From a virus, in IMG/VR virus record IMGVR_UViG_3300020109_000096, positions 1-30,074 of that record: 30,074 bases of DNA; one strand, given 5' to 3'. Position numbers and translations under genes: made by a program. Of the stretch, positions 8,107 to 27,982 are shown in pieces (the first letter of the stretch is position 1; every line of letters begins with the position of its first letter). The notes beneath the pieces were generated by a model. The model was not told where the DNA came from and ran no database searches. It worked only from the letters and a program-made list of their open reading frames with translations.

Positions 8107-8763
8107 TCAAGGAGTTTTTAAGTACCAACCTGTCAAGATATATTTATCTTGCGTGTAAACAGTTAAACCTCTATGTACATGAGTCATTCCAGCTGGCCAA
8201 AAAACAACTGTCCCTTGTGTGGGTCTTATTCTTCTCTTCTGATATAAAAATTCAGTTTCCCCCTCATTTTCTGGAAGAGTATTTAAATAAATCATCCAAA
8301 CTAATTCTCTGGGAGAATGAAAATACGTGCTGTTTTCATAATGCCAAACATGATAACCACCCATTGGTTCCGTTTTTTGCATTTTAACATCAGTAGACAT
8401 TAATCTGCATGATTTTAATTGTCCAAAAAAATTAATGTAGTGTAGGGCACAAGATTGCAAATATTGTTGCACTTGATATGTTATCGTTGGACTAGCATCT
8501 GATAATGCTATTGATAAATCTTTTCTGCCAAGATTGTTATCTGTAAACTGGTCGGTGCCATCCATGGTTTTGATGTCACTATCATCTTCAGATGGATGAA
8601 TTAAAGAAGAAGTTTGTGTAGTTCCTTCAAATGTATTAATAATAGTTTCGCAAAGTGACGCTGGAACAAAATCTTCCCAAACACCAATAAAATCTTGACA
8701 GTCAAATTTTGTCATTCTCGAATCTTTCATTAATTCGAGAGGTCTAATAGGTTGAATGCTCAT
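8107..8763 (-). CDS. 2OG-Fe(II) oxygenase-like protein (218 aa)
   Basis: The third oxygenase of the set and the most divergent. The core is GGYHVWHYEN (135-144), a strand LVWMIYLN, NEGETEFLYQ, the PTQGTVVFWPAG turn and THVHRG (194-199). Likely iron ligands are H141 and E143 (an HxE variant of HxD) and H195 or H197. The usual distal arginine seems replaced by K207 (DKYILTGWYL). Residues 1-130 are an N-terminal extension. Family knowledge says HxE enzymes can be active, but activity is not certain. It begins three bases after the 1,583-residue fibre gene, which ties it to fibre production. Confidence 0.83.
   Translation of the reverse strand: MSIQPIRPLELMKDSRMTKFDCQDFIGVWEDFVPASLCETIINTFEGTTQTSSLIHPSEDDSDIKTMDGTDQFTDNNLGRKDLSIALSDASPTITYQVQQYLQSCALHYINFFGQLKSCRLMSTDVKMQKTEPMGGYHVWHYENSTYFHSPRELVWMIYLNTLPENEGETEFLYQKRRIRPTQGTVVFWPAGMTHVHRGLTVYTQDKYILTGWYLKTP
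8141..8148 (-). promoter_or_regulatory. Possible internal T4-type late promoter
   Basis: GATAAATA on the minus strand differs by one base from the T4 late consensus TATAAATA. If used, transcription would start near 8135, about 31 bases before the ATG at 8104. That is nearly the leader length expected for the perfect late promoter at 27255-27262. It lies inside the oxygenase gene. Confidence 0.35.
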
Positions 8764-8766
8764 AAT

Positions 8767-11700
8767 TTAATATGCTTTAATTAAGTATTTTACTTTAAAA
8801 TATCTAGTCATTAATGGAACAGTTTTATTTGGTCTTAAATTGACTGTTGGAATTAATGCCTTGGAATTACTTAAAAGGAAATTTCCATCATTTAGGGTAC
8901 TTCCCAATTCCGACGTAGTGAAGTTTATGGATACCGTATTATTTAATGGCATACCAGAAGTACCTTTCCCCCCACCAGTATCGTTTCCCCAACCAAATAC
9001 ATTAATTGTAGATCCAAAAGTATTTAGTGACAGATAATGACTGTGTGTTTGAATGCCAGCAGGAGGTGAATATGATATGGAGTTAGCAGTGTTTGCGTTA
9101 ACATCAAGTGCTGCCAGATAGTCCCGTCCAGAAAGAGGTAAAGAATTATCTAATTGTACTGAACTGTTTTTATCAGATAACCAATAGTTAGAATAACTAA
9201 TTGTCATATCGATAAAAGTTCCTCCACCAAGGGGACCACCAAATGACTGTGGTAAAGATGGACCACCAGGAAGCTCTCCACTTAAATTATTAGTAGCCAC
9301 TCTTCGGCCGCCGCCAAATGTTGCTCTTGTTAACCAAGGAATCAACCCAGTAGTTTGGGCAGATGCAGTTGCAGTAATTATTTCGTGGGTATGACTAGGA
9401 ACAGTAACAATTCTTTCTTGTAAAGGTCCTACAGTTTGAGTTGTATTTCCAGAAATATTAAATCCCACGCTAGATAAAATTTCATCATATCCAGTTGTTC
9501 TGATTGTTCCCAATTTAAAGAACTCGCCATCTTGCCCGCCAGTAAATACTTGTTCTCTTGGATATGGTCCAGAAGCATCTAATTTAGCAATAAACCAACT
9601 CCCGCCTTCTGATCCAACGACAGTTCCACCACCAGAACCAGTACCAGCAGGTCCGTTTGCTGTGGGTAACATAGGAGAAGATACGCTGTTGCCATCTACA
9701 TTTCCCGTCCCCATAATTTTTCTATTTCTATAATTGGGCAACTTAAATGATCCACTATAAGTTTTTGTAGATCCACTAGTGGCAACAGCAGCAGTTCCTC
9801 CATATCTATTTTCAATTACAGCAAATAGATCTGGGTAATCTACGGCATTTAATGATTGTCCCTCACACACAATGAATCCAGGGTAACGAGAAGTTAAAGA
9901 ACCATCTAATGTGCCCCAAGAACCCGTTGCATCTTTAAATATAGAAATAACTGTTCCTATTGCAAGTCCATCAAGTTTTTTACCAATATCAGCATTATAC
10001 CACGTAGATGCTGATGAAGATGATGGTGCTGATCCAAGAACAGAAATTGACCAACTTCTAGACAGTGTGCCAACAGCAATATTTACAGTTGCTATTGGGC
10101 TTCCATATGCACCAGTTGTGAATTTTAAACTTAATGTTTGCCCATCATTAATTGGTGTGCTCGTTGATGTATATGCCCCGCCATCAATTGAAAATTGTGC
10201 GCCACTTGCTCCAGAAATAGCAACTGTTGCTGGCGAAGTAATTCCTTGTATTACTACAGTATTACTATAAACTACGGTACTTGCAAGTTGATTTAGTTTG
10301 TTAACAAAAGCAAAATCATCTGGCGTAGTATCTCCTGCTGATGTAGTTTCAATACTCCAGTCATCTGTTACCTGACCAGTTGCGGGATTACCAATACTTA
10401 CTGTAGTTGAAGCAGATCCAGTTGGTGTAGAAGAAGATGTTAATCTCAGTTGTAATGTTTGATTATTGGTTATTGTTGTTGTAGAAGTAGGAGTAACAAA
10501 ACCAGCACCATTTATGTTAACTAATGCTCCGCTAGTTGTAGCAACCTCAGCAGGAGAATTGATGCCAGTGATTGTAACTACATTACTATCAATTGCAGTT
10601 CCAGCAGCAACACCAGTTTGATTAATAAAATTGAAAAAATCTGGACCAGTATCAACTGTAAGTACAGTTTGTATAATCCAATCAACTGATGCACCAGCAC
10701 CAATAGTAACTAATGCTGTAGTAGCAGTGCCGATGACTGAAGCAGAAGTCATTCGCAATCTTAAAGTTTGACCATTATTAATTGTTCCTGTACCAGATCC
10801 TAATCCCACTCCGCCTATAATTAATTCAACTGGGACTGAAATTCCTCCAGGCGTAGATGCCGTTGCAGATATAGGAACATTTGTCCCTGTCATGCCAGAA
10901 ATTGTAACTTCGTTACTTGTTACTAAAGTAGATAGTCCAACATCCGTTTGGTCAGTAAAATCATATGGATTTGGAACAGAAGTTGGTAGATCTGCAGTTA
11001 TAATGTTCCAATTGGCATTAACAGTAGTGCCGCCAGCAGCGCCAACAATCAAGGTAGTCGTTTTACTAGAAGAAAAAGACGATGAAGATATCATTGAAAG
11101 ACCTAAGACATCATTATTAACTACTGTTGCTGTACTTGTTCCTAAATTAACTCCATTTTTAATTATAGTTGCTCCATTTGTAGCAGAAGCACTCACTGGA
11201 ACATTAATTCCAGTGATTGTTCTGTTTCCACTATATGATGTAGTTGTATTATAGGTTGTGCTGGGAGTTGCGTCAATGATTGAAGTAAAATCAGCTATTG
11301 GGTTGGGAATAGCATCATCCTCAGCGTATATAACTGTCAAAACACCATCAGTTCCGTTTGTTTGCGATCCACCACCGCCTGGTCCAGTACTAAAACTTGG
11401 CGCTGAAGTGTGATAGGTCAAATTATAGTAACTTCCACCGCCAGATCCACCACCAGCATCAGTATCACCCCCAGGTGTAAATCCATTACCTCCACCAGGA
11501 GAACCACCGCCACCGCCGCCACCACCGCCACCATCACCACCGTGGTTTGGCGCATTACCACCATTACCTAAACTAAGTGACGTAGATAAACCACCAGCAT
11601 TTCCTCCTGTTTGGAAAGGATTATATCCCCCATCATTACCACCACCACCGCCGCCACCGCCGCCGCCAGCAACAACAAGTACTGTGCCACTATAAACCAA

Positions 11701-13518
11701 AACACCAGCAGCTCCACCGCCGCCGCCAGCACCAGACCATCCACCAGGACCAGAATTTCCTCCAGTTCCCCCAGATCCACCACTGCTGCTAAAACTGTTA
11801 CTAGCTCCAGATCCGCCAGATCCATTTCCTACTCCTCCAGCTCCAGCGCCACCACCTCTTCCAACATATACTTGGATACTGGCACCAGGAGGCAAATTTT
11901 TGGCGGTTCCTTGAACTCTTCCCCCGCTACCACCAGTTCCGCCAGGGCTTCCCGCATCATAACCGCCTCCACCGCCCCCACCACCTTCTACAGTATAATT
12001 AAATTCTGTTATGGTAGCTGGTAGATTGAATGTTCCAGGTGATGTAAAATTTAATGTTGCCATAGGTCTTGTTGGTAAAACGGTAATTGTATGATAATCT
12101 GTAGTAAGTGTTCCTGAAATACTAGTTGCCGTTAAAGCGTATGTGGTGGTGGTTGTGGGATAAACCTCAATTCTACGATCAGCATCATAAGATACATTTC
12201 CGACTCCATTATTAATTACTAAATTAGTATGATCACCAGCAATTATCCATTGTAAGTAACCAACATCACCAGCAACTATCGTTTCAGATCCACTTAATTC
12301 TACTACAATTGGAGTTCTAATAGTAACAACTGCTTGCCGTACAGTAGATCCGCCAGCATTTACAGCCGTTATAGTATATGTAGTCGTTACCTCAAGGGAT
12401 CCTGCTGGAGTAAGTGCCCAAGGAAGAGTTGGTGGTGTTGAAGGATATACAACGAGAGATCCTGTTGGAGATACTGCACCAATTCCATTATCAATTGATA
12501 TTCCAGTTACATTTCTTCCACCTACAGACCAATTTAAAGTAACTGGATATCCTCTTGCTACTGTAGTAGAAGATGCAAAAAAATTAACTGATGGCGGAGG
12601 AGGATTTGATACTAGTAAACTAACATTTTCTTGCACTGTTCCACCAGGACCAGATGCAGTTACAATATAAACATATGTTCCAGGAGTCGTTGGTGCTACC
12701 ACTCTGGTTCCACTATTTAAAACAGAACCTATTCCTTGATTAATACTTACTGAAGATACAACTCCGCTTGTACTCCAAAGTAAGGTTGCTGTATCGCCAA
12801 CAATTATTGAAGGTACTGATATGTTAAATGAAACATATGGTGGAGGTGGTGCGGCAACAGTAAAACCATATTGTCCAGTAGTGGTTCCTCCTGGTCCAGT
12901 TGCAGTTATTCTAAAAATGTAAGTACCAGAAGAAGATGGAGAAAAAACTCTTGTCCCAGAATTAGGTACTGTTCCGATGCCACCATCAATAGATACAGAA
13001 GTTACTACGCCAGTAACATTCCAACGTAAAGTTACACTTTGCCCAAAAGGAACGGTTCCAACGCCAGCATCGCTCCCATCTTGTCTATCAATATTAAAAT
13101 TTACAAGAGTTGGTGGATTGAAAGTGCAACTTCCGTTATCTACTGTAGCAGACGGATTATAATTATTTGCATTTGGATTTGTGCATCCAGATATTGGACA
13201 CGCTCCAGTGGACATTCCAGAGTGTCTACCAAATAGAGCTACCTTACCAAGTTCTCCACTATCAACACCACCTTGTTGAATCATGTTAGAGACAGATCCA
13301 CCAAAGCGAGTTTGCCCATCACCATTAACCCAAAGATTAACCCAAAACTCTACGCCACCTTGTTCTCCATATCTTCCAAAAAATGTCGAGTATGAATATG
13401 TGATGGAATCGCGCAAAGGATCGCTTCCATCAGGGAACCAAAAAATTCCTTGGTTACATCCGACTGTTATGAATGCTAGATTAAAATTAGATGTAAAGTG
13501 ACCAAGTTGATATGCCAT
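8767..13518 (-). CDS. Large modular adhesin/tail fibre with Ig-like, glycine-rich and collar domains (1,583 aa)
   Basis: A modular receptor-contact protein. Residues 1-110 are a unique N-terminal domain. Residues 111-133 form a cysteine module with the pattern GCTNPNANNYNPSATVDNG. About 138-485 are four Ig/PKD-like beta-sandwich repeats, each with an NWSV- or RWNV-type strand and a ...SI(D/N)xGIGxV turn, joined by proline linkers. Residues 486-731 are a glycine-rich domain with runs of ten or more glycines. About 738-1160 are four further beta repeats (NxVTITGI ... TLxLRLTSS ... WSI). Around 1190-1270 is a phage tail-collar domain (GFIVCEGQSLN, FKLPNYRNRKIMG). The C-terminus (residues about 1270-1583) ends MTRYFKVKYLIKAY. 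It is probably a distal fibre or adhesin; no catalytic domain was seen. It sits between other collar proteins and oxygenases. Confidence 0.88.
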   Translation of the reverse strand: MAYQLGHFTSNFNLAFITVGCNQGIFWFPDGSDPLRDSITYSYSTFFGRYGEQGGVEFWVNLWVNGDGQTRFGGSVSNMIQQGGVDSGELGKVALFGRHSGMSTGACPISGCTNPNANNYNPSATVDNGSCTFNPPTLVNFNIDRQDGSDAGVGTVPFGQSVTLRWNVTGVVTSVSIDGGIGTVPNSGTRVFSPSSSGTYIFRITATGPGGTTTGQYGFTVAAPPPPYVSFNISVPSIIVGDTATLLWSTSGVVSSVSINQGIGSVLNSGTRVVAPTTPGTYVYIVTASGPGGTVQENVSLLVSNPPPPSVNFFASSTTVARGYPVTLNWSVGGRNVTGISIDNGIGAVSPTGSLVVYPSTPPTLPWALTPAGSLEVTTTYTITAVNAGGSTVRQAVVTIRTPIVVELSGSETIVAGDVGYLQWIIAGDHTNLVINNGVGNVSYDADRRIEVYPTTTTTYALTATSISGTLTTDYHTITVLPTRPMATLNFTSPGTFNLPATITEFNYTVEGGGGGGGGYDAGSPGGTGGSGGRVQGTAKNLPPGASIQVYVGRGGGAGAGGVGNGSGGSGASNSFSSSGGSGGTGGNSGPGGWSGAGGGGGAAGVLVYSGTVLVVAGGGGGGGGGGNDGGYNPFQTGGNAGGLSTSLSLGNGGNAPNHGGDGGGGGGGGGGSPGGGNGFTPGGDTDAGGGSGGGSYYNLTYHTSAPSFSTGPGGGGSQTNGTDGVLTVIYAEDDAIPNPIADFTSIIDATPSTTYNTTTSYSGNRTITGINVPVSASATNGATIIKNGVNLGTSTATVVNNDVLGLSMISSSSFSSSKTTTLIVGAAGGTTVNANWNIITADLPTSVPNPYDFTDQTDVGLSTLVTSNEVTISGMTGTNVPISATASTPGGISVPVELIIGGVGLGSGTGTINNGQTLRLRMTSASVIGTATTALVTIGAGASVDWIIQTVLTVDTGPDFFNFINQTGVAAGTAIDSNVVTITGINSPAEVATTSGALVNINGAGFVTPTSTTTITNNQTLQLRLTSSSTPTGSASTTVSIGNPATGQVTDDWSIETTSAGDTTPDDFAFVNKLNQLASTVVYSNTVVIQGITSPATVAISGASGAQFSIDGGAYTSTSTPINDGQTLSLKFTTGAYGSPIATVNIAVGTLSRSWSISVLGSAPSSSSASTWYNADIGKKLDGLAIGTVISIFKDATGSWGTLDGSLTSRYPGFIVCEGQSLNAVDYPDLFAVIENRYGGTAAVATSGSTKTYSGSFKLPNYRNRKIMGTGNVDGNSVSSPMLPTANGPAGTGSGGGTVVGSEGGSWFIAKLDASGPYPREQVFTGGQDGEFFKLGTIRTTGYDEILSSVGFNISGNTTQTVGPLQERIVTVPSHTHEIITATASAQTTGLIPWLTRATFGGGRRVATNNLSGELPGGPSLPQSFGGPLGGGTFIDMTISYSNYWLSDKNSSVQLDNSLPLSGRDYLAALDVNANTANSISYSPPAGIQTHSHYLSLNTFGSTINVFGWGNDTGGGKGTSGMPLNNTVSINFTTSELGSTLNDGNFLLSNSKALIPTVNLRPNKTVPLMTRYFKVKYLIKAY

Positions 13519-13543: not shown

Positions 13544-14410
13544 TTAGTGTTTGATTATGTATTCCACTAAAATAAAAGGAGATACCGCATCATCGAATGT
13601 TTCTGTTGGTTTAGTTGAAATATTAATTGTTGTTTTTAATCCAATTGCTGGAATATTAAATGTATTGTACTTCCATTTATAATTATGCGTATAAGTTGTT
13701 GGCATGGTTATTCTATGTGCATGTTGGGAAGACGTACTGGTTGTTCCCTCTGGTGCCTCTATAGTATAAATATCATTACCAGCAAATGGAGTACAATCAT
13801 TTGTTATACTAGGAACGGCTGGACCACTTCTTGAAGAAACCAAATAATTTCCAGTACAATTTAAAACAGTTTGATTTGCTAAATGGCCATGCCCCTGAAA
13901 ATCGCTGTCTGTTAAAGTAGCAATTTCAGTGTCTCTTGTTGTTGTACTATTATATCTTGGGTTTCCAAGCAACGCATCCTCTTGCCCAGAAACAACAAAT
14001 TGCCCTGTGTAAGAAATCTCTGTAGAAGTTCCTATGTTAGATGTTGCTTCAAACTCCGCACCAACTCTTTTTGTTGTGCCATCAGACAATGTTAATCCAG
14101 CATATGTTCCAGTTGCTGTTCCAGGTTGTATATATTTTGATCCTAAATCTGGTAATTGAAATTGATCGTTTCTTAAGGTTGCGCCTTCTTTTTTAAATTT
14201 ACTTTCGCTTCCAACGCCTAAAACTTCTGCTAAAGCTGGATATAGATTAGAAGACAATATACTTCCATCGCAACGCAAAAATCCAGCTGGTATTAAAGAT
14301 CTAAAAGTGGGGTCTGCAGGATCATTTGTTGCTGGTAATTGTGTTGAAAATAATTGAATGGTTCCTACCATTCCTCCAAACTTTGCTTTCTGTACTGCGT
14401 AATTTGCCAT
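13544..14410 (-). CDS. Collar-domain tail fibre protein (288 aa)
   Basis: A short fibre protein with a phage tail-collar-type N-terminal region. GGMVGTIQLFSTQLP is followed by PAGFLRCDGSILSSNLYPAL and QFQLPDLGSKYIQP, the usual order in collar domains. The rest is beta-rich with histidine-containing turns (GHGHLANQ, SQHAHRITMP) resembling metal-binding needle sections of T4 short-tail-fibre proteins. It ends SPFILVEYIIKH, similar to the ends of both neighbouring fibre proteins. It starts three bases after the 430-residue gene. The exact place in the virion is unknown. Confidence 0.85.
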   Translation of the reverse strand: MANYAVQKAKFGGMVGTIQLFSTQLPATNDPADPTFRSLIPAGFLRCDGSILSSNLYPALAEVLGVGSESKFKKEGATLRNDQFQLPDLGSKYIQPGTATGTYAGLTLSDGTTKRVGAEFEATSNIGTSTEISYTGQFVVSGQEDALLGNPRYNSTTTRDTEIATLTDSDFQGHGHLANQTVLNCTGNYLVSSRSGPAVPSITNDCTPFAGNDIYTIEAPEGTTSTSSQHAHRITMPTTYTHNYKWKYNTFNIPAIGLKTTINISTKPTETFDDAVSPFILVEYIIKH

Positions 14411-14413
14411 ATA

Positions 14414-15706
14414 TTAATACGCTCTTATAATATACATGACAATAACACTAGGAGTTTGTGTTATTACTTTGGTATTTAGAGCACTAGGAACATTTTGAGG
14501 AACTACATCAGATCTTACATTTGCAGTGATTGTGGTTGGCATTCTAAGAGAAGATTTGTCAAAAGTAATATCAAATGTTTCATGAGTATGAGAAGTAATT
14601 ACATCAGAAATACCAGCAGTTGGTGTTACTTTATTAAAGCTAATTCCAGAATGATTAAACATGACTTCATATGGACGATGTTGATCAAAATCACTATTCG
14701 CACCTCCATTATCAAAATTTCTCTGTGCTACTCTTATATTACTTCCACCAGGACCATATGGAGCACTATCTAGGGGTTCAAAATTTCTGTCCTTTAGCTG
14801 AAAATTTGGTGGACCAGGGGTGCCTTCTGGTGTGTCACCCCCGCCCCTACTATATGGAGCTGGTATATCTGGCGCTACAGAAGATCCAAACCAATTAGAT
14901 AGTCCGTGAGAAAAAATCTCCCTTGGAATTCCGTTCTGTGGCACTGCTTCTGAGAGTACATTTCCTAAAACAACCCCTGGCGCTCCATTTCCGAATGCAG
15001 TTCCGCTTGGTGAAAAATAATTAATATCAACCTCAACTGGGGCGAGCAAATCGTCAAAATACGCCTTTGTTATTTTATAACTGATTTGTCTTGAACACGA
15101 AACCCCGTCTCCTGCTCTTCCCTCTGTCCCTATTCCTTTGTTTATACTCGGAACAGTCGTTGGGTGTGAGTGGGTTGGTGTATGTCTTCTCCCTAATTTT
15201 CTGGCAGAGGTGAAAACCGTTTTTGCTCCAAATCCAGGATCGTAAGTAGATCCAGTTATTCTACCAGAAAAATCATTTTCTGGAGTGTAGCTAAACATAA
15301 TGTCAGTATAAATGTCATTAAATTCTCCTGGAACTCCATTATCTGTATCTCCAGGTCCAATATACGTTGAAACAGCTGCTAATGCATCAGCCGTATCTAT
15401 ATTTGGTCTTATTGCTCCTCCAGCAAAATAAGCACTATCAACATCTGATAGTGCTCTTTGAGAAATATTTGGTAAAGTTATTGTGCCAGCATACTCTGGA
15501 AATGAACTCCCAGGTCCAGTAGCAGGAACTGTCCCTCCATATGTGTTTTTAATAACTTGCGTGAGTAAGGGAAAATCACCAGCAGGTATATCATTACCAT
15601 TACATATTAACCATCCCCTAGGAACTTCAGTTAAATCTCCTACCCACGGCATAATAGTGCCAATGGCGCACGCTTTCATCGTTTTAATGCTTCCGTAATC
15701 TGCCAT
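14414..15706 (-). CDS. Collar-domain tail fibre protein (430 aa)
   Basis: Starts MADYGSIKTMKACAIGTIMP and shows a phage tail-collar domain at residues about 14-95 (WVGDLTEVPRGWLICNGNDI, then PLLTQVIKNTYGG and ITLPNISQRAL). The C-terminal two thirds are beta-strand and glycine/proline-rich, with paired histidines (RRHTPTHSHP, SHTHE) that may hold metal in a trimeric needle. It ends TPSVIVMYIIRAY, paralogous to the ends of the 288- and 1,583-residue proteins. TGGAG lies nine bases before the ATG at 15706, which follows the giant gene's stop by three bases. Confidence 0.87.
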   Translation of the reverse strand: MADYGSIKTMKACAIGTIMPWVGDLTEVPRGWLICNGNDIPAGDFPLLTQVIKNTYGGTVPATGPGSSFPEYAGTITLPNISQRALSDVDSAYFAGGAIRPNIDTADALAAVSTYIGPGDTDNGVPGEFNDIYTDIMFSYTPENDFSGRITGSTYDPGFGAKTVFTSARKLGRRHTPTHSHPTTVPSINKGIGTEGRAGDGVSCSRQISYKITKAYFDDLLAPVEVDINYFSPSGTAFGNGAPGVVLGNVLSEAVPQNGIPREIFSHGLSNWFGSSVAPDIPAPYSRGGGDTPEGTPGPPNFQLKDRNFEPLDSAPYGPGGSNIRVAQRNFDNGGANSDFDQHRPYEVMFNHSGISFNKVTPTAGISDVITSHTHETFDITFDKSSLRMPTTITANVRSDVVPQNVPSALNTKVITQTPSVIVMYIIRAY

Positions 15707-15709
15707 TGA

Positions 15710-18700
15710 TTAAATCTCCATTAACCACCAACCTTGTCTATCACTTGGTACTCCAGAAGCAGCACCATTTGATAGGAATGGACCAGCATAAACAAGTCCA
15801 AATGCTGCATTTGGTGTTGTAACAACTAGTTCGCCGCCATCGTATCCTGTAAGAGTTATACCTGTAACTGTTGCAGCAATGTTTGTTGCATCACCCTGAA
15901 TTGGTACTCCAGTTGCTGCTCTAACAACAAGTTTCGTGTCATATTTTAAGTTTCCACCAACATCTATAAATCTAATCATGTCGCCCATGGAGGGACTTAA
16001 TGGTAATCTGACATAAATCGTTCCAGTTGCATTTACAAAATAATTTACATTACTTGTAACAGTTCCAGCATCTCCAGAAGGAGCACCAAGTAGTTCCCAT
16101 CTTCTAGCTCCTGTAGGACCATAAAAATAATCAAGTCCACCAAGGTCTATTGTGCCATTATTATTAACTCTAAAGTGATTATAAACCTCTAAACGTGCCG
16201 TGCCATTGACTGCAAATCCAGTTGTATGAGTTGGAGCACCAGGTCCTGTAGTTCCAGCTTGTGTAACTCTGTAGGTAATTCCATTGTTATAAACAAAAGT
16301 ATTTACAGCAACTGCCGTGGTTGCCACCCATTGGGATCCTCTATTAATTTGAAGATCTCCACCATTCAATCTTAAATCACTATTGAAGATGTTGGTTCCA
16401 GAAGTTGCATCTGAGGTATACAATCCAGAAATTGTTAGGTTTCCAGTTCCATTCTGTAAGAACAATCTATTACCAGTTCCAGCAGAATCATAAATCCTGA
16501 AATCACCGCCATTAATTGTTGTATTGCCATTAGATCCAGTTACTGTTAATTTATTGAATCCAGCGCCAACATTAAGATTTCCAAGAATACTCGTGTTGCC
16601 ATTTGCACTATCTACTTTAAATGAAGTTACAGCAGAAGAAACGGTTACAGCATCAATAATAACATTTGAATTGGTAGCAAATGTTGGACTTGCTGCGGTT
16701 AAGACGTTAATATTGCCATAAGTAAACTCAACTGCTTGTGTCAACACTGATGTAGTGTTTCCACTAAGAACAGCAGTAACCGTTAATCTATAAATATGAA
16801 TTTCAGAAGATACTGATTGTGGTCCAGAATATCCAACTGCAGAAACTCCATCTGTTCCTGGTGCAGTTGTAATATAATTTGGTTGAATAACAGTTCCAAC
16901 TGGTAATGTAGTGGCATTTGCTGGTAATGTAGTTGTTGTTGAAGGAATGCCAGTTAGGTGCCAATGTACTATTCTTCTTCCAGTTGATGGATTAGTTGCT
17001 GTTAGATCTTCTAGATAAATGGTATAACTAGAAATTGTAATGCCAGTTGGTAGCGATCCAAATGACCAAGATAGAGCGGGGTTCTTGTTTTCTGCAGCAG
17101 CGTATACTGCACCGCCGCCAGTCCAAGTTCCAATCATGGAATCAGTGGCAACTGGTAAAACTGTACCAGAAGGTACTAGAGGAGGAGGAGTAGGTGTGCC
17201 ACTTGGAGTTACTGTAAATGTGCTTCCAGTAACAGCAGTTGTTGATGATGGTGTTGTAGTAGTTGCTCCATTATTAATTGCAAATAGTTTTGTATTTGCT
17301 GCGTCGGAACCATATAGATTGATACTATTGTAGATATCAGTTCTACCTTTAATCGTAGTATTTCCAGTTGTTGATTCAACTAAGAAATTAGTTACTGCTG
17401 GAGATCCACCATCAGTAATTCTAAGAGATTGAATTGAAGTTAGAGCAGAAACAAGTGATTGAATCTTAACTAATTCAGTATTAGATAATCTCAAGAAGTC
17501 GTTAGCAACAAGAGCGCCGCCAAATTCTGCTGTTTTAATAACGGTGTTTGCTCCAGCAGTGTTAAGACCAACTGCTTCAGTTAAGAAGCTAACATCATTT
17601 GACTTAACTAATTTAACAATAGGAACATTATCTGGATGTGCGCCAGCGGTTGTTCCCTCTTGTCCTCTAAAAACTTCAACTCTAAATCCAGCAGGATCAG
17701 CAGAGTTATTTAAATTCGTTAATTTATCTACTCGAACAATTTCACTAGCTGCTTGGTTTGGAATATATCCAGCAGGTTGACCAGGAAATGTTACAGATCT
17801 ATCGATTAATAAGAAATCTCCAACATTTATATCTGTTGTTGATGATGGTTCATTTAAAAATAGAGTGTAATTTGTTGCCAACCAAGTTGCTGCACCTTGC
17901 GTATCTAATGTTTTACCAATAGTAATTGGATGATACAAGTCAATATTTAAATTAAGTAAAGATCCTGCTAAGTGAGAAACTGGGGTTGTTCCAAATACTC
18001 CACGAACTACTTCAACTCCTCCAGCATTTAAACCACCAGATAGAGTAATATCACCATTAACAGTTTCACTCGCTCTAATTAGAACACTGTTATTAATTGT
18101 AGTTGTACCAGCATCAGCACCTACGTTTAAAATAGAGGCAGTTCTAGCAAAATTAATTGTGTTAGGACCACCAGAGGCACTAAACAGATTTAAGTTTTGA
18201 GCAAAGGTGTATAGGTTTGTTGTTCCAGATCCAACTGGAAGACCAGATCCAATTTGAACATCTCCATCCAAATTGATGTTCTTATTCTTAACGGTAAACG
18301 AGCTTGAACTGTTTGCAAATGCACCACCAATTGTTATATTTGAAATATAACTAGCATTTGCGTTATCTACCGTGCCAATATTAATTGTAGAATTTCTAGA
18401 ATTTTTATGGATATCTAAAATTGAGGTTGTAGCAGCATCACCTATTTTAACAGTTTGATTAGTAAAATAATTACCAATATTTAAGGCTTGCGTTCCAGTT
18501 GCTAATGTGGAATTAGATATATTTAATAATGTTGCGCTATTAGCAAAAGAAACCGTAGTTGGAAGTGTTGCCAAATTAAACGTTGGGTTTGGACTATCAA
18601 GGTTTCCTGTTGATAGTGTTACTGTTCCAGCAATCTTAAGAGATCCGAGAATATCTGTACTTCCTTGAACGAGGAAGTCGGCACCAGCAGCAGTTATTTC

Positions 18701-21700
18701 GGCAACAGAAGCATTAATTCCAACCTTACCGCCAGAAGGACCGATGGTAGAAACACGGAAAGATGCTCTATCGTTTAGAGCAGTGTGATTGCCGCCGACA
18801 ATAAATGCATCATCTCTAGCAACAGATGCTTTTGTTTGTACCCCACCAGCAACGGTAATATTTGTTTTCTTACCGCTAATGAATACAGTTCCAGCAACGT
18901 CCAAGTTTGATACTGGATTTGTTTCTGTCTCCACAAATCCATTTTTATAAGCATCGTTAGTCGCTCTGGAAACCGTGTTAATTCCTAACTTATAATCGCC
19001 AAATGTTTCTGTATTAGTTCTGAGTGTTTCTGCGCCGATTACACCAACTTCCTTCCAATTTGCTCTAGCAACTTCCATTTTAGGAGTTGTTGGTAGCGTA
19101 GACCAAGTATAAATGGTACCACTAGCTGGTGGTACAACAATTCTTATTTTACAAGAATTTGCGGTTGGCGCGAATCCAGAAGATAAAACTGTCCAAATGC
19201 CATTTAAATTAGTATTTGAGGAGAAATTACTAATTCTAATTTGAGACCCAGCAGAAACATTGACATCTGAATTTTTTACCGCTCCTGTCCAAGTAATTGT
19301 AAGGTCAGTGCCGTCGCTGCTAATACTTTGAATACTCGTATCAGCAATTTGTGTGTAATAATTTGCATAAATCCATCCAAGAGATCCAGATAATCCAACT
19401 TCGCTGCCCTTTAATAAAATGTCTCCCGATTGTGCTCTTAAAGACGCACTATAAGAAACTTCTTGAGTATTGCTGAATAATTTTGTTTGATCTGGAGTTG
19501 TGTTTGTTGGTCCTAGTGTCGTTGTAAAATGAGTTCTAAATGAATACGGTTGACCATCTACTCCCAGTGATTGTCTTGGCGTGACTGTGTAAATTGCAGA
19601 TCTAATTTGATTCTTAGTTAATGTGATATCTCCATCATTATTATTTCTTTGTACAGATCTGCTTAAAGAAACGTCGTCGCCTAAAGTTCCATCTACTACA
19701 CTGTAGATACGTAGTGCAGTTGATTCGCTAGCGTCAACTGCAATTTCAACTGGATTATTAAAGTTGGCGTTTCCTTCAACAGTAATTCTATTATTAAATG
19801 TTACTGGTACATCAAACGTTGTAACTAATCCACCGAGATTATCAGTAGAATCATCATCAGATTCAACCAACTCTGCTCTTTCTAAATAAGTTTCTTCGCC
19901 AGTAATGGCATTAATCTTGCGATTACCAATGTAGAGATCTCCATTGGAGTTCAAACCAGTATAGAATACAATACCGCCATCTTCTCTCTTAGATTGAGCG
20001 TATTGATCTTGAGAGGTTGAAAGAACAACTTCCTGGCGGAGTGGGAAACCAGTTGAGTAGTTACCAGGACCAAATCCAAGATATTCAAACGTGTGGTTAC
20101 CTGAACGAGCAATAGATGGTCTACGAAGTTCTACGTATATTTTTCTTTGAGTTGGGAATGTAGAATTACCAGAAATAGGGATATATCTGTCTTCCGATCC
20201 AGAAGTTGCATTTCCTTCTTGAGCTTCAATAATATTAGATCCACCAGCAGGATTAAGAGTTGGGGTTGTTAAAGTTTCTGAGTTTACAAATGTATAAGAA
20301 TTCAACGCTGGTTGTAAAACTAAATCCAAAACCAATTCCTTGGTTTGACTATTTTTAGAATCATTAATAGTAACTAAACCATGAACATAGTTATCTGCGG
20401 CAGCAACTGAAGCGGGCACATCGTTATTAGATGCTTTTAATTGCTTAAACCATACAGGATCGTTCTTATAGTTTAATGGATATAATTGTGAAATTGGTTG
20501 AGAGAATTTATAATTTTTAAAGTTATCGCCAACACCAGCACCAGTTGGGAATGGTGATATGTTACCACGTAGACAAGTTAGATAGTAAACACCATCTTGT
20601 TGTCCTGGGATTCTTTCTTGAATTGTATCAATGTCAAAGATATAGAAAGTATCTTCAAAATCACCAATATCAGTTACAGATACAATTCGATAATTATTAC
20701 TTGCATCATCAGTGATAATATCGCCAGGAACTAATGTATAAACATTTGCACCTTCAACTCTGTATAAGTAATCTTTTCTATTTGATTTATCCCTTCCTTG
20801 TGAATCCCCAATACTATTTGGTTTTGCACGTAAATCTGCAAACACCACTCCCTGTGTAAATCTGGTGTCAATGAGATTATTGTATACTATTGGATCGGAT
20901 ACATTTTTGAGAACAAGGTAATGTTTTCCTGCAGCACTAAAATATCCTTGAATATAAGCAGAACCTTGTGAGTTGCCGCTCCAAGTAACCGCATTTGCAG
21001 CAACAGAAGTAGAATTGTTTATGACAAACGATCCCCCCTGAGGAGCATTAATTTCTACAACAGTGAAAATTTCATTTTTTAAAGCAGTATTTGTAATGGT
21101 ATGATCAAATGCAACCAGTTCTAAAAATGTATTTGTACCTACTGTTACTTGATTTGCAGATTGAATTGTAAATGCAATTTTACTAGATGTTTTATCACTA
21201 TCAATAATTTTTGGATTATTATATGGATCATAGAGTGATGTTCTCTTTTCTGGAGATAGATTAAATATTCCAGCATCAACTGGATTTATGGGATCTGCAG
21301 AAAGTTGTGTTTGATTAAATCCAATTCTTTCTTGTGCGCCAGTTGGATTTGAGAACCTTGGGATTGCTGGGGCGCCACCAATTGGTTCTAAACGTATTCT
21401 TTGTGGTACTAATCTTCTCTTGTCATCAGTTCTTGCTTTAATAATAAATCCATTAAGTGGATCTCTTACAGTTGTCAAATAATATGGAATAACATACTTT
21501 AATCTATAAATTCTATCTTGTTTTGATCTATTATCTTGTACACGAGTAAACCATGTGTCAAGGGTTCTAATTTTTCCAGATCCTGCACCATATGCAGCAA
21601 CATTATGGAATCTATCTAAAATGCTATCCGTTCTAGGTGATGTTCCAGAAGATTCATCTTTTACTTGTAAGTACCACAAACCAGAAGTATTTCCTGGTGC

Positions 21701-24700
21701 CGTGTATAATGGATCAAATCTTAGTGGACTAATTCTTTTATCGGCATAAACATAAAAGTTTTTCCCGCTACCAGAAACAAATGAGACAGCATTTGTACCA
21801 GCAATTGCATCGGCGTGTGTTAAGTGGATGCTAAACTTTTTAGAAGTAATGTATCTGACAAAGAAATAAGTTTTTGTATTTATTGTTGCTCCCCCAGCAA
21901 GTTCTGGTAAATCAGATCCAATAATATCAGTAGCTAAACGGAAAAATACTTTTTGTGGAGTTACATTATTATTTGGAAGATCAAAAATATGCGATACATC
22001 AGTTTCAAGTTCTGTTGCCCCAGCGATATTACACTTGTATTTGTGTAAATCATATGTTTCATCAAGGACATATTGTTGAATTTCAATTTGTACATTAGGA
22101 TCAACGGCATCTGTTTCTGGCGAATAGATATAGATGCCCGCAGCGGCATTCTCTTTTGTAGCTGCAAGCATTAATTTTGTTTGGTCTGATCCATCAAAAG
22201 TACTAGTACTATTATATTTTTCTGGTTGAGTTTCTCTACCTGGAGCAATTACATAGTAAGTTCTATTAGTTTCAAATCCTATTGGAAGACGAATTACTCT
22301 CTTGTCTGGTGTAGTCCCCGCTTTTGCAATCGGAACAAGTTTTACTGGCGTTCCAGTTTCAAATTTATGTGGATTTGTTGTTCCGCTACCAGTATTTACT
22401 GTAAATATTGTTGCTCTTTTTGATAGTCCTGCATAATCAATAACTGGTTCTACTCTTGTAACACTAGCATATGTTGGTGTTGTTTTTACAACGCCAGTTA
22501 AGTTGCCAGGGGCAGTTGCGGTGCCAACTGCTTGAAGAAGAATATCTATTAAATTGGTGATAGCAGTAGCAACATTAGCACATGCTGGAGTACTAGTATC
22601 AACTGTAATTGTTAGATCTTTAACTTGTGTTAGCGTAGATCCAGTTATGGTAATTGTTTCATTTCTCATGGCTTGAATAGCCATGTTTCTCACCTGTTCA
22701 TAAACATACCTAGATTGTTCTCTTTCACCCGCCAATAAAGCGGGTTCATTAACGTAAAATAACCCTGCCTCATAAATTTTATTATTTGATCCAAATTTGA
22801 CGTTGAATGCTAAAGCGTCGATGACCTTAAGAACATCATCAATGCACTCCTGATTCCCCCCAGGAATAGAAAATCCAGGGAAGTTTGTTAACATCCTATC
22901 AACAGCAACTTGAGCAATTAATTGTTTGTTATCTATGATCAAATCAGAAGCATCAGCAGATTTATTATCTACAGGAGTTAGTCCTTGGTTTAAAATGCTG
23001 GTGAAGTCATTAAAGTATCCAGTAATAGTTGACGCAACAGTGGCACATTCTGGATATGCTGTATCTTGTGTAATTGTGGGATCTGTTACTGGCGTTATAG
23101 TTGACCATGCCCCCGCAGGAAGATCAAAATATAAATTTGTTGTACTAGAAGTTTGGAGAGCGTTTACAACAGCCCCAGTTGTTAATTTACTTCCAAGAAC
23201 ACCTAATTCAATTTTACTGGCACTGACAATCCTCTTTACATAAGTGTTGGCTGGAATATTAGATGTGACTGGAGTTTGTGCTGGTGTAGTTATTAGTTTT
23301 CCATTCAAGAATGAACTGGGATTATACGAACGAACACGCATTCCAATTATAATACCCGATGTACTGCCAACATCTACAATAGCACTTCCTGCACTTGTTT
23401 CACAATTTTTTCTCAAATAATCAAAATTACGCATTGCAGCAATGCAGATATTTTTAACATAATCATACGCTTCAATACTTTCTGTAAGTTCGCCCGAAAT
23501 ATATGAAAGATTAGTGCCAACGAAGTATGATTCTGCTGCTTGAATGCTGTTGATATTACCGCCCAATCTTAAATCTTGAACAATAGCATCAACTAGATAT
23601 CCAATGTCGCGCTTACACTTTAATATATTGATACTAGTATTTGTCAGTAAAGCTGGGTATTTTGTAATAATATACTGATATGCTTCTTCTTGAATGAATG
23701 CTTTGTTATCTTCAATCTGATTAGCAGCGTCTTGTGCTTTATTATCAATAACAATGCCAGCAGGATTTAGTGTATCTAAAGAAGTTGTGTATCTAGTAAA
23801 TCCTGTTGGTTCTAAGCATGAATAATAAGTTCCATTATCAAGTTTTACATATAATTTTTCATTTGTCTTGCTTCCAATTCTAAACCCGTCTACAGAAGCT
23901 GCAGGTCTTACCGCTGGATCAGATGCTCCATCCGTTCCAAGATATAATTTGGTGTGATTTGTGGCACTATTTGACGCTTGAATATCTAATGTATAATATT
24001 GAATTTTCTTCTCATTACTTGAAGATGTATTAATGATTTTTGGTGGAATAATATCAGTAATGTATCCACCCTTATCTTGGTTGAATGAGAATCCTTTAAA
24101 TCCCTTTGCGTGTAAAGATGTATTACCAAAGTTAGAGTTAGAGTTGGTGATTGACATATCACCGCCGCTTTCCATCAAGAAGTGATCGTGGAATCCAACC
24201 GCGAAGACAGACACGCATTGAATAAAGGAATCATCCGAAGCGCGAATGTGGAAGTTTCTCCAATCATCTTTCCAATATGCATCCCCCTTTGTGTGGTAAG
24301 GAACAGTAGCAAACGCATCAACTAAAGATGCTTGATTCCAAGTGTTGGTAAATTTATCATAGCGAATAAATGCTCTATCGTCTTTTTGTAGAGAAACCCC
24401 TGTGTATTGAGCAACAACCATTGACTTGAATCCAGTTGCTTTGGATCCATCTGCCCACATTCCGTTCATTCCCCAGGTAGATCTGATTGAACAGTTAAAG
24501 ACATATGGGGATGCAGATTCTACAGAGTCAATTTCTGCTTGCGCTACAGCATTAGTGCTCAGGCTATTAGATGCATTATAAATTTGACCAGATACCAATC
24601 CCAACCCAGCAGCAGTACCACTAATTTGGTATTCAAATACTTTAGGGTTTGTTGTATCTAAAGCTGTAACCTTAAATGTTCCGTTTACTTGTTCATCAAG

Positions 24701-27217
24701 TCCTGAATTTAAGATAGCAACATATTGATCAACAAAATATCCATGATCAATTTTTGTTGTAACTTTAGCTCTAATCGTCCCAGAAGGAACCGAATCAAAT
24801 AGTTGAATACTTTCAATTCTTCTTGTATCAGAAAGAGGTCCAACAATTCTATTTTCTTGAACTAACGCTTCAAATTCGCCATCATCAATATCTGGTTGGA
24901 ACTGTACGAATGCCCTTCCAACTTTTTCGTAATAACGATCAAGTTCCTCGGTATCCGCATATTCCATAATACAAATTTTATGGTGCGAAAATTCTGGAAT
25001 AGACAATTGCGAGACATTGCCTTTTTGGGAATAAACCTTACCAACACCAGCAATATTATCATAAAGTGGGGAATTACTTGATAAATCTCCATCTTTAATT
25101 GTAAACTGCCAAATATAACAACCACCAGTTAAGTTAAAAAGTGACGTTCTTACCTGTGATCCATCGGCGGGGTCAGGAACATATAATGGTCTGATAATTG
25201 TTCTACGAAGGTCATATCCAATTAGAGAGCAACCTCTAGGAACAATGCATCCACCAGTTGAAGCATTAAACTTATAAAGAACGTTGTTTGGATTACTCAA
25301 ATCTAAGATACTTTCATCTTGCCATTCTTGTAAGGCGCGATTATAATTAAATACTGGTTGTGTACCAGTAATTACAACAGAAGCTAAGTTATTAAGATTT
25401 CCTGCTTGTATTGTGGTTGTTAATACGCTAACCAGTGTTGTGATAGTATTTTGTACATCAACGCACTGTGCAGGATTACCAGATGCTAAATGTGGAATAA
25501 TTGGAGTTATTGCACCAGCAAATGCTGGTCCCAGTTGAATCGTAAAATCTTTGCTTAAAAGTTCATTCACGATTGCTTTTTTCATCATGTCACGAGACAT
25601 GTTAAATGCCGTGATAGATTGAGCTTCTTCGTTTACTAATCCATTTAAAATTGGATTGCCTTGTCTATCAAAATAGGTTTTGGTTGCAGATACAATATTA
25701 TAATTTCCGCCAGTTCTCAAATCTGCACAAACTGCATCAATAATAAAACCAATATCTCTCTTACATTTTGTTTCTCCAGCAGGTACAGTTCCTAAAGTTT
25801 CTGCAACAAAATGACTTCCAGTTATGTTACCAGCAGTAATTGTAGTTGTAATTAAAGAAATTAAATTTGTAATTTGTGTTTGGACGTTAGCACAGGAGGT
25901 GGAATTTGTATTCGATGCAGATCCAGATCCAGGTGTTGGGTCTGCAGTAATTGTAAGATCTTTAACATATAATTTGTTAGTGATCGCCTCAATCATCACA
26001 TTTTTTGCTTTGTTAAAAGCCGTATTAGATTGAGCCTCTTCGCCCTGAAGTCCCGCAGTAATCCACGTTGATCCGTCTGGGGTAAAATAATTTTTTAAGA
26101 ATTTTCTGGTGTATTTGTTTCCGCCACCTAAAGACACGTCCAAAGAAACTGAGTCAACTAAAATTCCAATATCTCTACGACACTTATCCTGTCCAGTAAG
26201 GAAAGTTGGAGCAACTTCTGAAACAAGTCCTGTTGTATTGCCAGCATTTATGACCGATGTAACATTTGCTGTCAAAGTTTGTATTGTTGACTCAAGAGCA
26301 GCATATAATGCTGGTGGTTGTGCAAGTGTAAGATCTTGATATGCTGCACCAACAAGTGTGTTGGTGATTGCCTGTTTCATGAAATTTCTTGCCTGCTCAA
26401 AAGCTTCTATTGATTGAGCTTCTTCACCTAAAAGACCATTCGTAAGAGGAGTTGTTGGACCAGTAAAATACTGAAGAACAAATTTTCTAGAGTATTTTAC
26501 TGCCCCCAAGAAAAGATCTAAAGAAATGGCATCAACAAAAATACCCAAATCTCTTTTACATTTTGCCTCTGTGGGAGCAGCACCTGGATATGACAATAGC
26601 ATAGTATCCCATGCTCTATCAATAATAATTTGTCTGTTCTTTTGAATCAGACGATACGCATCATATCGAGCAAGTTGGGGAGAGGGTGTTGCTGTTGGAT
26701 CACCAGGAAAATTAAAATCTTCGTGGTCAATTGCAACTTGAGCTAAAGCTTTATCTAAAATTTCGTCTCTATTTTGTTGGATTAGACGATAAGCATCTTT
26801 AAATCTAGACACAGCAGTTGTTGCTGGATCACCAGGAAAATAAAAATCTGGGTGTTGAACTGCAATTTCTGCTGCAGAACGATCAATAATTTCTTGTTTG
26901 TTTAACTCAATTAAATTTGCCGCATCAAGATATCTCTGTTCTGCATTTGCAGCATCAACAAGTCCAGGTCTATTATCAATATAATGGTTGCCAGGCATCA
27001 ACATGACGCTAAACTGGTCAAACCTATCATTATTCTTACCAGGAAGATATGAATAACGTGCTACTTCAATAAAAGCTCTTTGAATTGTTTTGAATGGGCG
27101 TAGAGGAGAGTTTCCTCTATTATCTAATTCATCAGTAGCATTGAAATCATCTGGAGATACGTATAGATATTTTCCTGTTTTACTTGAATATAAATTATCA
27201 AGCCTTGTAAGAGCCAT
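15710..27217 (-). CDS. Giant tail fibre/virion structural protein (3,835 aa)
   Basis: One unbroken frame. The N-terminus (about 30-95, SPLRPFKTIQRAFIEVARYS then MLMPGNHYIDNRPG) and a later part (about 655-720, PRGCSLIGYDLRRTIIRP) look like a pectate-lyase-type right-handed beta-helix of the sort that anchors cyanophage fibres. Between them are helical repeats with DAYRLIQxNRxxIID at about 97, 141 and 186, and CKRDIGxxVDA at about 220, 346 and 485. Two more such modules occur near 1200 and 1458. Then come long serine/threonine/asparagine-rich fibre repeats. A PEBP-like domain lies at about 3355-3483, and the C-terminal tip includes TGYDGGELVVTTPNAAFGLV and ends WWLMEI. Expression is from the late promoter at 27255-27262, and GAG lies just upstream of the ATG. 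It is probably a long fibre or baseplate-attached adsorption protein. Confidence 0.88.
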   Translation of the reverse strand: MALTRLDNLYSSKTGKYLYVSPDDFNATDELDNRGNSPLRPFKTIQRAFIEVARYSYLPGKNNDRFDQFSVMLMPGNHYIDNRPGLVDAANAEQRYLDAANLIELNKQEIIDRSAAEIAVQHPDFYFPGDPATTAVSRFKDAYRLIQQNRDEILDKALAQVAIDHEDFNFPGDPTATPSPQLARYDAYRLIQKNRQIIIDRAWDTMLLSYPGAAPTEAKCKRDLGIFVDAISLDLFLGAVKYSRKFVLQYFTGPTTPLTNGLLGEEAQSIEAFEQARNFMKQAITNTLVGAAYQDLTLAQPPALYAALESTIQTLTANVTSVINAGNTTGLVSEVAPTFLTGQDKCRRDIGILVDSVSLDVSLGGGNKYTRKFLKNYFTPDGSTWITAGLQGEEAQSNTAFNKAKNVMIEAITNKLYVKDLTITADPTPGSGSASNTNSTSCANVQTQITNLISLITTTITAGNITGSHFVAETLGTVPAGETKCKRDIGFIIDAVCADLRTGGNYNIVSATKTYFDRQGNPILNGLVNEEAQSITAFNMSRDMMKKAIVNELLSKDFTIQLGPAFAGAITPIIPHLASGNPAQCVDVQNTITTLVSVLTTTIQAGNLNNLASVVITGTQPVFNYNRALQEWQDESILDLSNPNNVLYKFNASTGGCIVPRGCSLIGYDLRRTIIRPLYVPDPADGSQVRTSLFNLTGGCYIWQFTIKDGDLSSNSPLYDNIAGVGKVYSQKGNVSQLSIPEFSHHKICIMEYADTEELDRYYEKVGRAFVQFQPDIDDGEFEALVQENRIVGPLSDTRRIESIQLFDSVPSGTIRAKVTTKIDHGYFVDQYVAILNSGLDEQVNGTFKVTALDTTNPKVFEYQISGTAAGLGLVSGQIYNASNSLSTNAVAQAEIDSVESASPYVFNCSIRSTWGMNGMWADGSKATGFKSMVVAQYTGVSLQKDDRAFIRYDKFTNTWNQASLVDAFATVPYHTKGDAYWKDDWRNFHIRASDDSFIQCVSVFAVGFHDHFLMESGGDMSITNSNSNFGNTSLHAKGFKGFSFNQDKGGYITDIIPPKIINTSSSNEKKIQYYTLDIQASNSATNHTKLYLGTDGASDPAVRPAASVDGFRIGSKTNEKLYVKLDNGTYYSCLEPTGFTRYTTSLDTLNPAGIVIDNKAQDAANQIEDNKAFIQEEAYQYIITKYPALLTNTSINILKCKRDIGYLVDAIVQDLRLGGNINSIQAAESYFVGTNLSYISGELTESIEAYDYVKNICIAAMRNFDYLRKNCETSAGSAIVDVGSTSGIIIGMRVRSYNPSSFLNGKLITTPAQTPVTSNIPANTYVKRIVSASKIELGVLGSKLTTGAVVNALQTSSTTNLYFDLPAGAWSTITPVTDPTITQDTAYPECATVASTITGYFNDFTSILNQGLTPVDNKSADASDLIIDNKQLIAQVAVDRMLTNFPGFSIPGGNQECIDDVLKVIDALAFNVKFGSNNKIYEAGLFYVNEPALLAGEREQSRYVYEQVRNMAIQAMRNETITITGSTLTQVKDLTITVDTSTPACANVATAITNLIDILLQAVGTATAPGNLTGVVKTTPTYASVTRVEPVIDYAGLSKRATIFTVNTGSGTTNPHKFETGTPVKLVPIAKAGTTPDKRVIRLPIGFETNRTYYVIAPGRETQPEKYNSTSTFDGSDQTKLMLAATKENAAAGIYIYSPETDAVDPNVQIEIQQYVLDETYDLHKYKCNIAGATELETDVSHIFDLPNNNVTPQKVFFRLATDIIGSDLPELAGGATINTKTYFFVRYITSKKFSIHLTHADAIAGTNAVSFVSGSGKNFYVYADKRISPLRFDPLYTAPGNTSGLWYLQVKDESSGTSPRTDSILDRFHNVAAYGAGSGKIRTLDTWFTRVQDNRSKQDRIYRLKYVIPYYLTTVRDPLNGFIIKARTDDKRRLVPQRIRLEPIGGAPAIPRFSNPTGAQERIGFNQTQLSADPINPVDAGIFNLSPEKRTSLYDPYNNPKIIDSDKTSSKIAFTIQSANQVTVGTNTFLELVAFDHTITNTALKNEIFTVVEINAPQGGSFVINNSTSVAANAVTWSGNSQGSAYIQGYFSAAGKHYLVLKNVSDPIVYNNLIDTRFTQGVVFADLRAKPNSIGDSQGRDKSNRKDYLYRVEGANVYTLVPGDIITDDASNNYRIVSVTDIGDFEDTFYIFDIDTIQERIPGQQDGVYYLTCLRGNISPFPTGAGVGDNFKNYKFSQPISQLYPLNYKNDPVWFKQLKASNNDVPASVAAADNYVHGLVTINDSKNSQTKELVLDLVLQPALNSYTFVNSETLTTPTLNPAGGSNIIEAQEGNATSGSEDRYIPISGNSTFPTQRKIYVELRRPSIARSGNHTFEYLGFGPGNYSTGFPLRQEVVLSTSQDQYAQSKREDGGIVFYTGLNSNGDLYIGNRKINAITGEETYLERAELVESDDDSTDNLGGLVTTFDVPVTFNNRITVEGNANFNNPVEIAVDASESTALRIYSVVDGTLGDDVSLSRSVQRNNNDGDITLTKNQIRSAIYTVTPRQSLGVDGQPYSFRTHFTTTLGPTNTTPDQTKLFSNTQEVSYSASLRAQSGDILLKGSEVGLSGSLGWIYANYYTQIADTSIQSISSDGTDLTITWTGAVKNSDVNVSAGSQIRISNFSSNTNLNGIWTVLSSGFAPTANSCKIRIVVPPASGTIYTWSTLPTTPKMEVARANWKEVGVIGAETLRTNTETFGDYKLGINTVSRATNDAYKNGFVETETNPVSNLDVAGTVFISGKKTNITVAGGVQTKASVARDDAFIVGGNHTALNDRASFRVSTIGPSGGKVGINASVAEITAAGADFLVQGSTDILGSLKIAGTVTLSTGNLDSPNPTFNLATLPTTVSFANSATLLNISNSTLATGTQALNIGNYFTNQTVKIGDAATTSILDIHKNSRNSTINIGTVDNANASYISNITIGGAFANSSSSFTVKNKNINLDGDVQIGSGLPVGSGTTNLYTFAQNLNLFSASGGPNTINFARTASILNVGADAGTTTINNSVLIRASETVNGDITLSGGLNAGGVEVVRGVFGTTPVSHLAGSLLNLNIDLYHPITIGKTLDTQGAATWLATNYTLFLNEPSSTTDINVGDFLLIDRSVTFPGQPAGYIPNQAASEIVRVDKLTNLNNSADPAGFRVEVFRGQEGTTAGAHPDNVPIVKLVKSNDVSFLTEAVGLNTAGANTVIKTAEFGGALVANDFLRLSNTELVKIQSLVSALTSIQSLRITDGGSPAVTNFLVESTTGNTTIKGRTDIYNSINLYGSDAANTKLFAINNGATTTTPSSTTAVTGSTFTVTPSGTPTPPPLVPSGTVLPVATDSMIGTWTGGGAVYAAAENKNPALSWSFGSLPTGITISSYTIYLEDLTATNPSTGRRIVHWHLTGIPSTTTTLPANATTLPVGTVIQPNYITTAPGTDGVSAVGYSGPQSVSSEIHIYRLTVTAVLSGNTTSVLTQAVEFTYGNINVLTAASPTFATNSNVIIDAVTVSSAVTSFKVDSANGNTSILGNLNVGAGFNKLTVTGSNGNTTINGGDFRIYDSAGTGNRLFLQNGTGNLTISGLYTSDATSGTNIFNSDLRLNGGDLQINRGSQWVATTAVAVNTFVYNNGITYRVTQAGTTGPGAPTHTTGFAVNGTARLEVYNHFRVNNNGTIDLGGLDYFYGPTGARRWELLGAPSGDAGTVTSNVNYFVNATGTIYVRLPLSPSMGDMIRFIDVGGNLKYDTKLVVRAATGVPIQGDATNIAATVTGITLTGYDGGELVVTTPNAAFGLVYAGPFLSNGAASGVPSDRQGWWLMEI

Positions 27218-27908: not shown

Positions 27909-27982
27909 AGCCTAAGGTCGGACTTGAACCGACGACCTACGGTTTACAAAACCGTTGCTCTATCCAGCTGAGCTACTCAGGC
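27909..27982 (-). tRNA. tRNA-Thr (TGT)
   Basis: A 74-base cloverleaf. The acceptor is GCCTGAG/CTTAGGC with one G-T pair, the D-stem GCTC/GAGC, and the anticodon stem ACGGT/ACCGT with loop TTTGTAA (anticodon TGT, codon ACA). The T-stem is GTCGG/CCGAC, and the discriminator is T. CCA is not encoded. Its first ten bases are also the last ten bases of the cpeT reading frame. Confidence 0.95.

Follow-up and report, generated by a model that had tools for sequence, protein, structure and literature searches.

The locus analysed here raises the question of whether a stretch within a giant cyanophage tail fibre is a PEBP domain, how it came to be placed there and what it may do for the virion. PEBPs, a family that counts the flowering signal among its members and has representatives in bacteria, animals and plants, are present in every domain of life as well as in giant viruses, and what they do at the molecular level is still under dispute. 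As to viruses, the part of PMC8793217 that deals with viral PEBPs names giant DNA viruses together with some lineages related to them; phages go unmentioned in the text.

The window, i.e. the whole stretch of DNA that was analysed, is an IMG/VR virus record of 30,074 bases. Judged by their sequences, its genes are those of a T4-like cyanophage, kin of Synechococcus phage S-PM2. The giant tail-fibre protein of 3835 amino acids is encoded by an open reading frame on the minus strand (15710..27217), most of which is spanned by a match to PHROG 4527 ('short tail fiber protein'). Three further virion genes lie on the same strand: a gp12-like short tail fibre of 430 amino acids (14414..15706, PHROG 4591) which in the window has no PEBP insertion, a tail-collar-domain protein of 288 amino acids (13544..14410) and a virion structural or tail protein of 1583 amino acids (8767..13518, PHROG 4924/2155/30655). 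The 1583-residue protein holds no PEBP copy detectable by the phage PEBP profile, and a degenerate copy in the other tail proteins of the window was likewise considered and rejected with the phage-specific profile. Beside the tail-fibre cluster stand two 2OG-Fe(II) oxygenase-like genes that are paralogues of each other, both on the minus strand (6488-7135 and 8107-8763); such genes are common, unexplained neighbours of cyanophage fibres.

Assignment of the domain to the PEBP family

Residues ~3357-3506 of the fibre are assigned to the PEBP/YbhB family by sequence profiles and by a predicted structure. The original prediction had proposed a PEBP domain embedded in the giant fibre from a series of landmarks, and all of these were found at the residues named: NPALSW (N3379), YTIYLEDL, VHWHLTGIP (H3418/W3419), GYSGPQ (G3462) and IHIYRL (H3474).

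The Pfam model PF01161 matches residues 3374-3483 (16769..17098, minus strand) over profile positions 9-101 of 135, scoring 37.1 bits (E 4.9e-9) when the entire protein is searched and 43.2 bits when the domain is excised, the curated Pfam cut-off being 24 bits. The same model matched all 16 family members scanned at E <= 0.01, a few of them under the curated cut-off. By the NCBIfam model TIGR00481 (YbhB/YbcL) the domain is related to this subfamily but is not a member, as it scores 29.2 bits against the model's own cut-off of 57.75.

A profile of seven homologues was compared with all PDB sequences and found YbcL (1fux, E 1.6e-7), YbhB (1fjj, E 9e-4), Rv2140c (4beg, E 2e-3) and HP0218. Profile-profile comparison with YbhB/YbcL gave a probability of 96% and an E-value of 4.7e-9. 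A further HMM was trained on three proteins only, namely YbhB, YbcL and a phage PEBP of the stand-alone kind, with no fibre sequence included, and it scored the window domain at 29.1 bits, compared with 6.4 for the best of 1000 shuffled sequences and -4.2 for the reversed domain.

The AlphaFold2 model of the excised domain is of moderate confidence (pLDDT 73, pTM 0.73) and is weak at residues 15-48 of the excised domain; a second, longer model was slightly worse and the first one was kept. With this model, the first 19 PDB matches in Foldseek were all PEBP/FT proteins (best E 6.6e-7), among them YbcL, YbhB, Rv2140c, HP0218, CT736, Plasmodium PEBP, FT and TFL1, at TM-scores of 0.5-0.6. The predicted structure thus has the two-sheet beta core of the PEBP fold. 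An Ig-like or other beta-sandwich carrying the motifs by chance is a reading to which we give next to no probability: fibronectin and Ig folds did appear as weak Foldseek matches, but they ranked below the PEBPs, and the profile, structure, homologue and shuffle tests all contradict it. The PEBP assignment was upheld by sequence profiles, homologues and the predicted structure, which gave PEBP matches on top and no Ig sandwich.

YbcL and YbhB of E. coli (PF01161; 1fux, 1fjj, 1vi3) are the best matches of the domain in both sequence profile and structure, and share with it the fold and the SPxLxW, HW, GYxGxxPP and HxY motifs. Unlike the phage domain, which sits in a fibre and has neither the second Asp nor the Arg, they are free proteins of a single domain in which the DPDAP motif is complete and the C-terminal element present. 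PEBPs of phage genomes also include PHROG 5139, which the fibre domain matches, and stand-alone proteins. One stand-alone protein, a ~207-residue open reading frame of a gut phage (L108, MT835538), covers PF01161 positions 8-135 at 130 bits and is not part of a structural protein.

Insertion sites, distribution and descent of the module

The giant fibres of the Synechococcus phages Sf-CH1b and S-PM2 belong to the same fibre family as that of the window, and PF01161 has no match anywhere in either genome. The Sf-CH1b fibre aligns with both flanks of the domain, at 49% and 41% identity, and leaves the site empty: NGAST-PITTFDVDS in Sf-CH1b corresponds to NGATT-[208 aa]-AVTSFKVDS in the window. 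The inserted unit of ~208 amino acids (~residues 3321-3528; 16634..17257, minus strand) consists of a linker, the PEBP domain and a return to the stalk, and has no counterpart in Sf-CH1b. This alignment bears out the embedding of the domain in the fibre; the original prediction had located it at 16769-17155, where the domain does lie, but these bounds are slightly narrow for the inserted unit. The insertion site coincides with a boundary between FxVxSxxGNTxIxG stalk repeats, ~310 residues from the C-terminal end.

Relative to Sf-CH1b there is a second, smaller insertion of ~50 amino acids (QWVATTAVAVNTFVYNNGITYRVTQAGTTGPG..., ~residues 3629-3675; 16193..16333, minus strand), nearer the tip than the PEBP insert. 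It is rich in aromatic residues, looks by eye like a small carbohydrate-binding module, and has no Pfam match.

A second clean insertion of a PEBP domain is found in the gp12-like fibres of L093 and L098, where it lies between YIGTG and TDILFEY when aligned with the 430-residue homologue in the window. Altogether the domain occurs in 33 IMG/VR contigs including the window, a sample biased toward relatives of the window fibre, and in four virion-protein contexts. The first is the giant fibre, in the window, G001, G046 with two near-copies (L095, L097), G005 and G047. The second is the gp12-like short fibre (PHROG 4591) adjoining the giant fibre in G005 and G047. The third is a structural protein of ~1400-1900 amino acids (PHROG 30655/4924), which carries the module at residues ~210-520 in 21 contigs, and the fourth comprises other tail proteins in five contigs, one of which (L110) adjoins genes closest to those of S-SKS1, S-SRM01 and P-SSM2. 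Wherever a protein that harbours the module has a PHROG match, it resembles a tail, baseplate or virion structural protein. From sequence, the module appears to have moved between several different tail proteins.

In two contigs the giant fibre and the gp12-like fibre beside it each carry a PEBP module (L071/L093 in G047, L007/L098 in G005). The two modules within G047, or within G005, are only distantly related to each other.

The domain was thus recovered in further cyanophage fibres on IMG/VR contigs. A search of cyanophage fibres for the same insert found PF01161 in 5 of the 79 records behind the fibre loci, and most of the sampled related fibres are without the module. In a tblastn search of 50,697 deposited phages with five different members, no cyanophage matched and a single gut phage matched weakly. 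The only confident match to the module in a viral structure library is A0A6S4P7W4, a 'cell wall/surface repeat protein' of 724 amino acids from uncultured marine phage MedDCM-OCT-S31-C1 (E 5.6e-5, 21% identity), which probably carries the same module, deposited but not named as a PEBP. No cellular donor was identified, since a profile scan of ~85,000 prokaryote genomes found no relative. The expectation that no fibre with this domain had been described agrees with the open-access literature, where we found no paper on a PEBP domain in a phage tail fibre, a receptor-binding protein or a cyanophage, and no report of a PEBP on phage virions.

In a tree rooted with three non-fibre PEBP sequences only (YbhB, YbcL and the stand-alone gut-phage PEBP), 24 fibre members form one clade with support of 100/100 and long branches, and mostly cluster by host protein. 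A single origin per host protein was considered and rejected: on the best tree, whose basal branches are weak, the giant-fibre copies are not one group and two changes are needed. Between the window and G001, dN/dS is 0.098 in the PEBP domain and 0.077-0.108 in its neighbours, and the domain is therefore under purifying selection.

Phycobiliprotein-like repeats and the CpeT gene

The same fibre contains helical repeats resembling phycobiliproteins (Pfam PF00502, Phycobilisome) at residues ~185-286, 1159-1264 and 1418-1519 (26360-26665, 23426-23743 and 22661-22966, minus strand), with weaker repeats besides these three; on the whole fibre the E-value is 3e-10. A profile of eleven repeats retrieved 101 PDB sequences at E <= 1, of which the best 60 of 101 were essentially all phycobiliproteins, C-phycocyanin alpha being the best match (E 1.7e-4). 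The resemblance extends over only ~58 aligned residues, and both homology and bilin binding are putative. The 58-residue stretch takes in the bilin-attachment segment (AKCARDIGYYLRM in phycocyanin vs LKCKRDIGYLVDA in the phage); the CxRD attachment motif is largely kept and CxxD is present in 125 of 129 repeats. Relatives of the repeat were found by tblastn in 405 phage records, essentially all of them cyanophages.

A gene of the CpeT/CpcT family of bilin-lyase kin (27973-28497, minus strand; PF06206, E 1.6e-35) lies a short way upstream of the fibre gene and is surrounded by tRNAs. A CpeT gene likewise precedes the fibre in S-PM2, Sf-CH1b and Sf-FR1, and its position beside phycobiliprotein-like fibre repeats is suggestive. 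These repeats may matter more than the PEBP module.

Fibre residues ~1401-1600 are largely absent from the G001 fibre, the flanks of which are 71-80% identical; one phycobiliprotein-like repeat, together with its neighbour, has been lost or gained between these two close relatives. In S-PM2 (L002, NC_006820.1, locus 15502-20329), the RefSeq annotation has 16 tRNA genes within the span of the giant fibre gene. ARAGORN found no tRNA within that gene, and we take the overlap to be a coordinate error for this reason, the annotation apparently being shifted.

The pocket and possible functions of the module

FT/PEBP proteins have five near-universal residues, D71, D73, H87, H118 and R119 in FT numbering, with D73 and R119 forming the shoulder salt bridge, and they have been proposed as enzymes with a 2 His-2 Asp-1 Arg centre, as described in the part of PMC8793217 on these residues. 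In the window, D3404 of the LEDL motif (17006..17008, minus strand) corresponds to the cavity-rim Asp (D70 of human PEBP1, D71 of FT) in two profile alignments; this is probable and not certain, because MAFFT shifts D3404 by two residues, against the second Asp. H3418 of VHW (16964..16966), followed by a Trp that is invariant in the family, aligns with the first rim His (H86/H87) and H3474 of IHIYR (16796..16798) with the second (H118), both on the minus strand, and the rim trio is likely to be kept in the window.

Across the 24 members, the first rim position is D or N in every case, the first His is present in 13 and the second in 18, and nine members, the window included, have the full D-H-H trio. 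The second Asp and the Arg, i.e. the D72-R119 'shoulder' salt-bridge pair, are absent from all 24; the window has T3406 and I3475 instead. The loss of this pair does not exclude the domain from the PEBP family, because accepted but divergent members also have disrupted shoulder positions in the account given by that part of PMC8793217. The original prediction, which regarded the ligand site as altered and the pocket as possibly reused, holds for the second Asp and the Arg; since D3404, H3418 and H3474 are kept by profile alignment, the pocket may be intact and not merely reused. PF01161 matches stop at positions 98-105 of 135 in every fibre member and the last ~34 positions have no match. Positions after ~105 are absent in all fibre copies, and the domain is therefore trimmed at its C-terminus.

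Depolymerases are often carried on phage fibres, and with a rim trio that is likely intact in the window, the module could be a fibre-borne enzyme modifying a surface sugar or small molecule. We regard this as quite improbable, because every one of the 24 members has other residues in place of the second Asp and the Arg, which are among the five proposed for catalysis, and we know of no PEBP with demonstrated activity on surface glycans.

The reading that we favour, with somewhat more than even confidence, is that of a mobile accessory host-adhesion module near the fibre tip which binds a small polar surface group. The PEBP/YbhB-family domain, trimmed at its C-terminus, has been inserted as a mobile module in the stalk just upstream of the C-terminal tip, and three or more additional virion proteins appear to have received this module. 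On the favoured reading it would project from the fibre shaft and be exposed, and its cavity, or the surface round the cavity, may recognise something small and polar on the cyanobacterial cell, for instance a sugar or an anionic substituent. This extra attachment point might strengthen reversible attachment or shift host range. The analysis establishes the fold and family, the clean insertion at two sites, the four virion-protein contexts and the purifying selection, and beyond these the reading is inferred, namely exposure on the fibre, ligand binding and a part in adsorption. To our knowledge, cyanobacterial membranes lack phosphatidylethanolamine, and this lipid is for that reason unlikely to be the literal ligand. 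Against the adhesion reading, many relatives have lost the rim His pair, so that a conserved ligand cannot account for everything; the missing salt-bridge pair and the moderate confidence of the structure model also count against it.

Phage tail proteins also bear accessory domains, Ig-like and others, that are dispensable, mobile and surface-exposed and are thought to bind cell-surface carbohydrates. The Ig-like domains are comparable mobile modules, but their fold differs from that of PEBP, and we know of no PEBP among the described accessory domains of phage tail proteins.

The main rival to the adhesion reading is a passive structural insert, i.e. a rigid knob or spacer at the stalk-repeat boundaries that has a vestigial pocket and contributes length, trimer stability or resistance to proteases. 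In part of the family the pocket residues have been free to erode, the invariant positions are mostly structural (W58, W93, G136-Y137 and P140 in excised-domain numbering), and most sampled related fibres manage without the module, all of which would suit a spacer. Independent placement in four protein contexts suggests more than that, as does retention of the D-H-H trio in two contexts and in one member of a third, and there is hardly any variation in the GYxGPQ loop, which lies at the edge of the pocket. We consider the spacer unlikely, though deserving of serious attention.

It has also been proposed for secreted YbcL, the closest solved relative and encoded in prophage DLP12, that it acts on host physiology, and the module might similarly act after entry or on release while merely being carried on the virion. 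However, YbcL is a stand-alone periplasmic protein whereas the phage domain is always within a large tail protein, fibres remain outside the cell, and a long, fully supported branch parts the phage-fibre clade from YbcL, which makes such a role very improbable.

Adhesion may also be put in a wider form, which we offer tentatively and hold at slightly less than even confidence: a phage-specific PEBP clade would supply marine T4-like cyanophages with an interchangeable cassette for receptor binding, one that has repeatedly entered unrelated tail proteins and that recognises a small group, anionic or a sugar, on the surface of picocyanobacteria. If true, this cassette would be a new use of an ancient ligand-binding fold. 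In the trimmed, mobile PEBP of cyanophage adhesins, nature has in effect run an experiment in variation that bears on which elements of fold and pocket are indispensable, and the module can be used for domain-swap tests. It is a candidate host-range determinant of Synechococcus and Prochlorococcus phages, in a group, the cyanomyoviruses, whose receptors are largely unknown.
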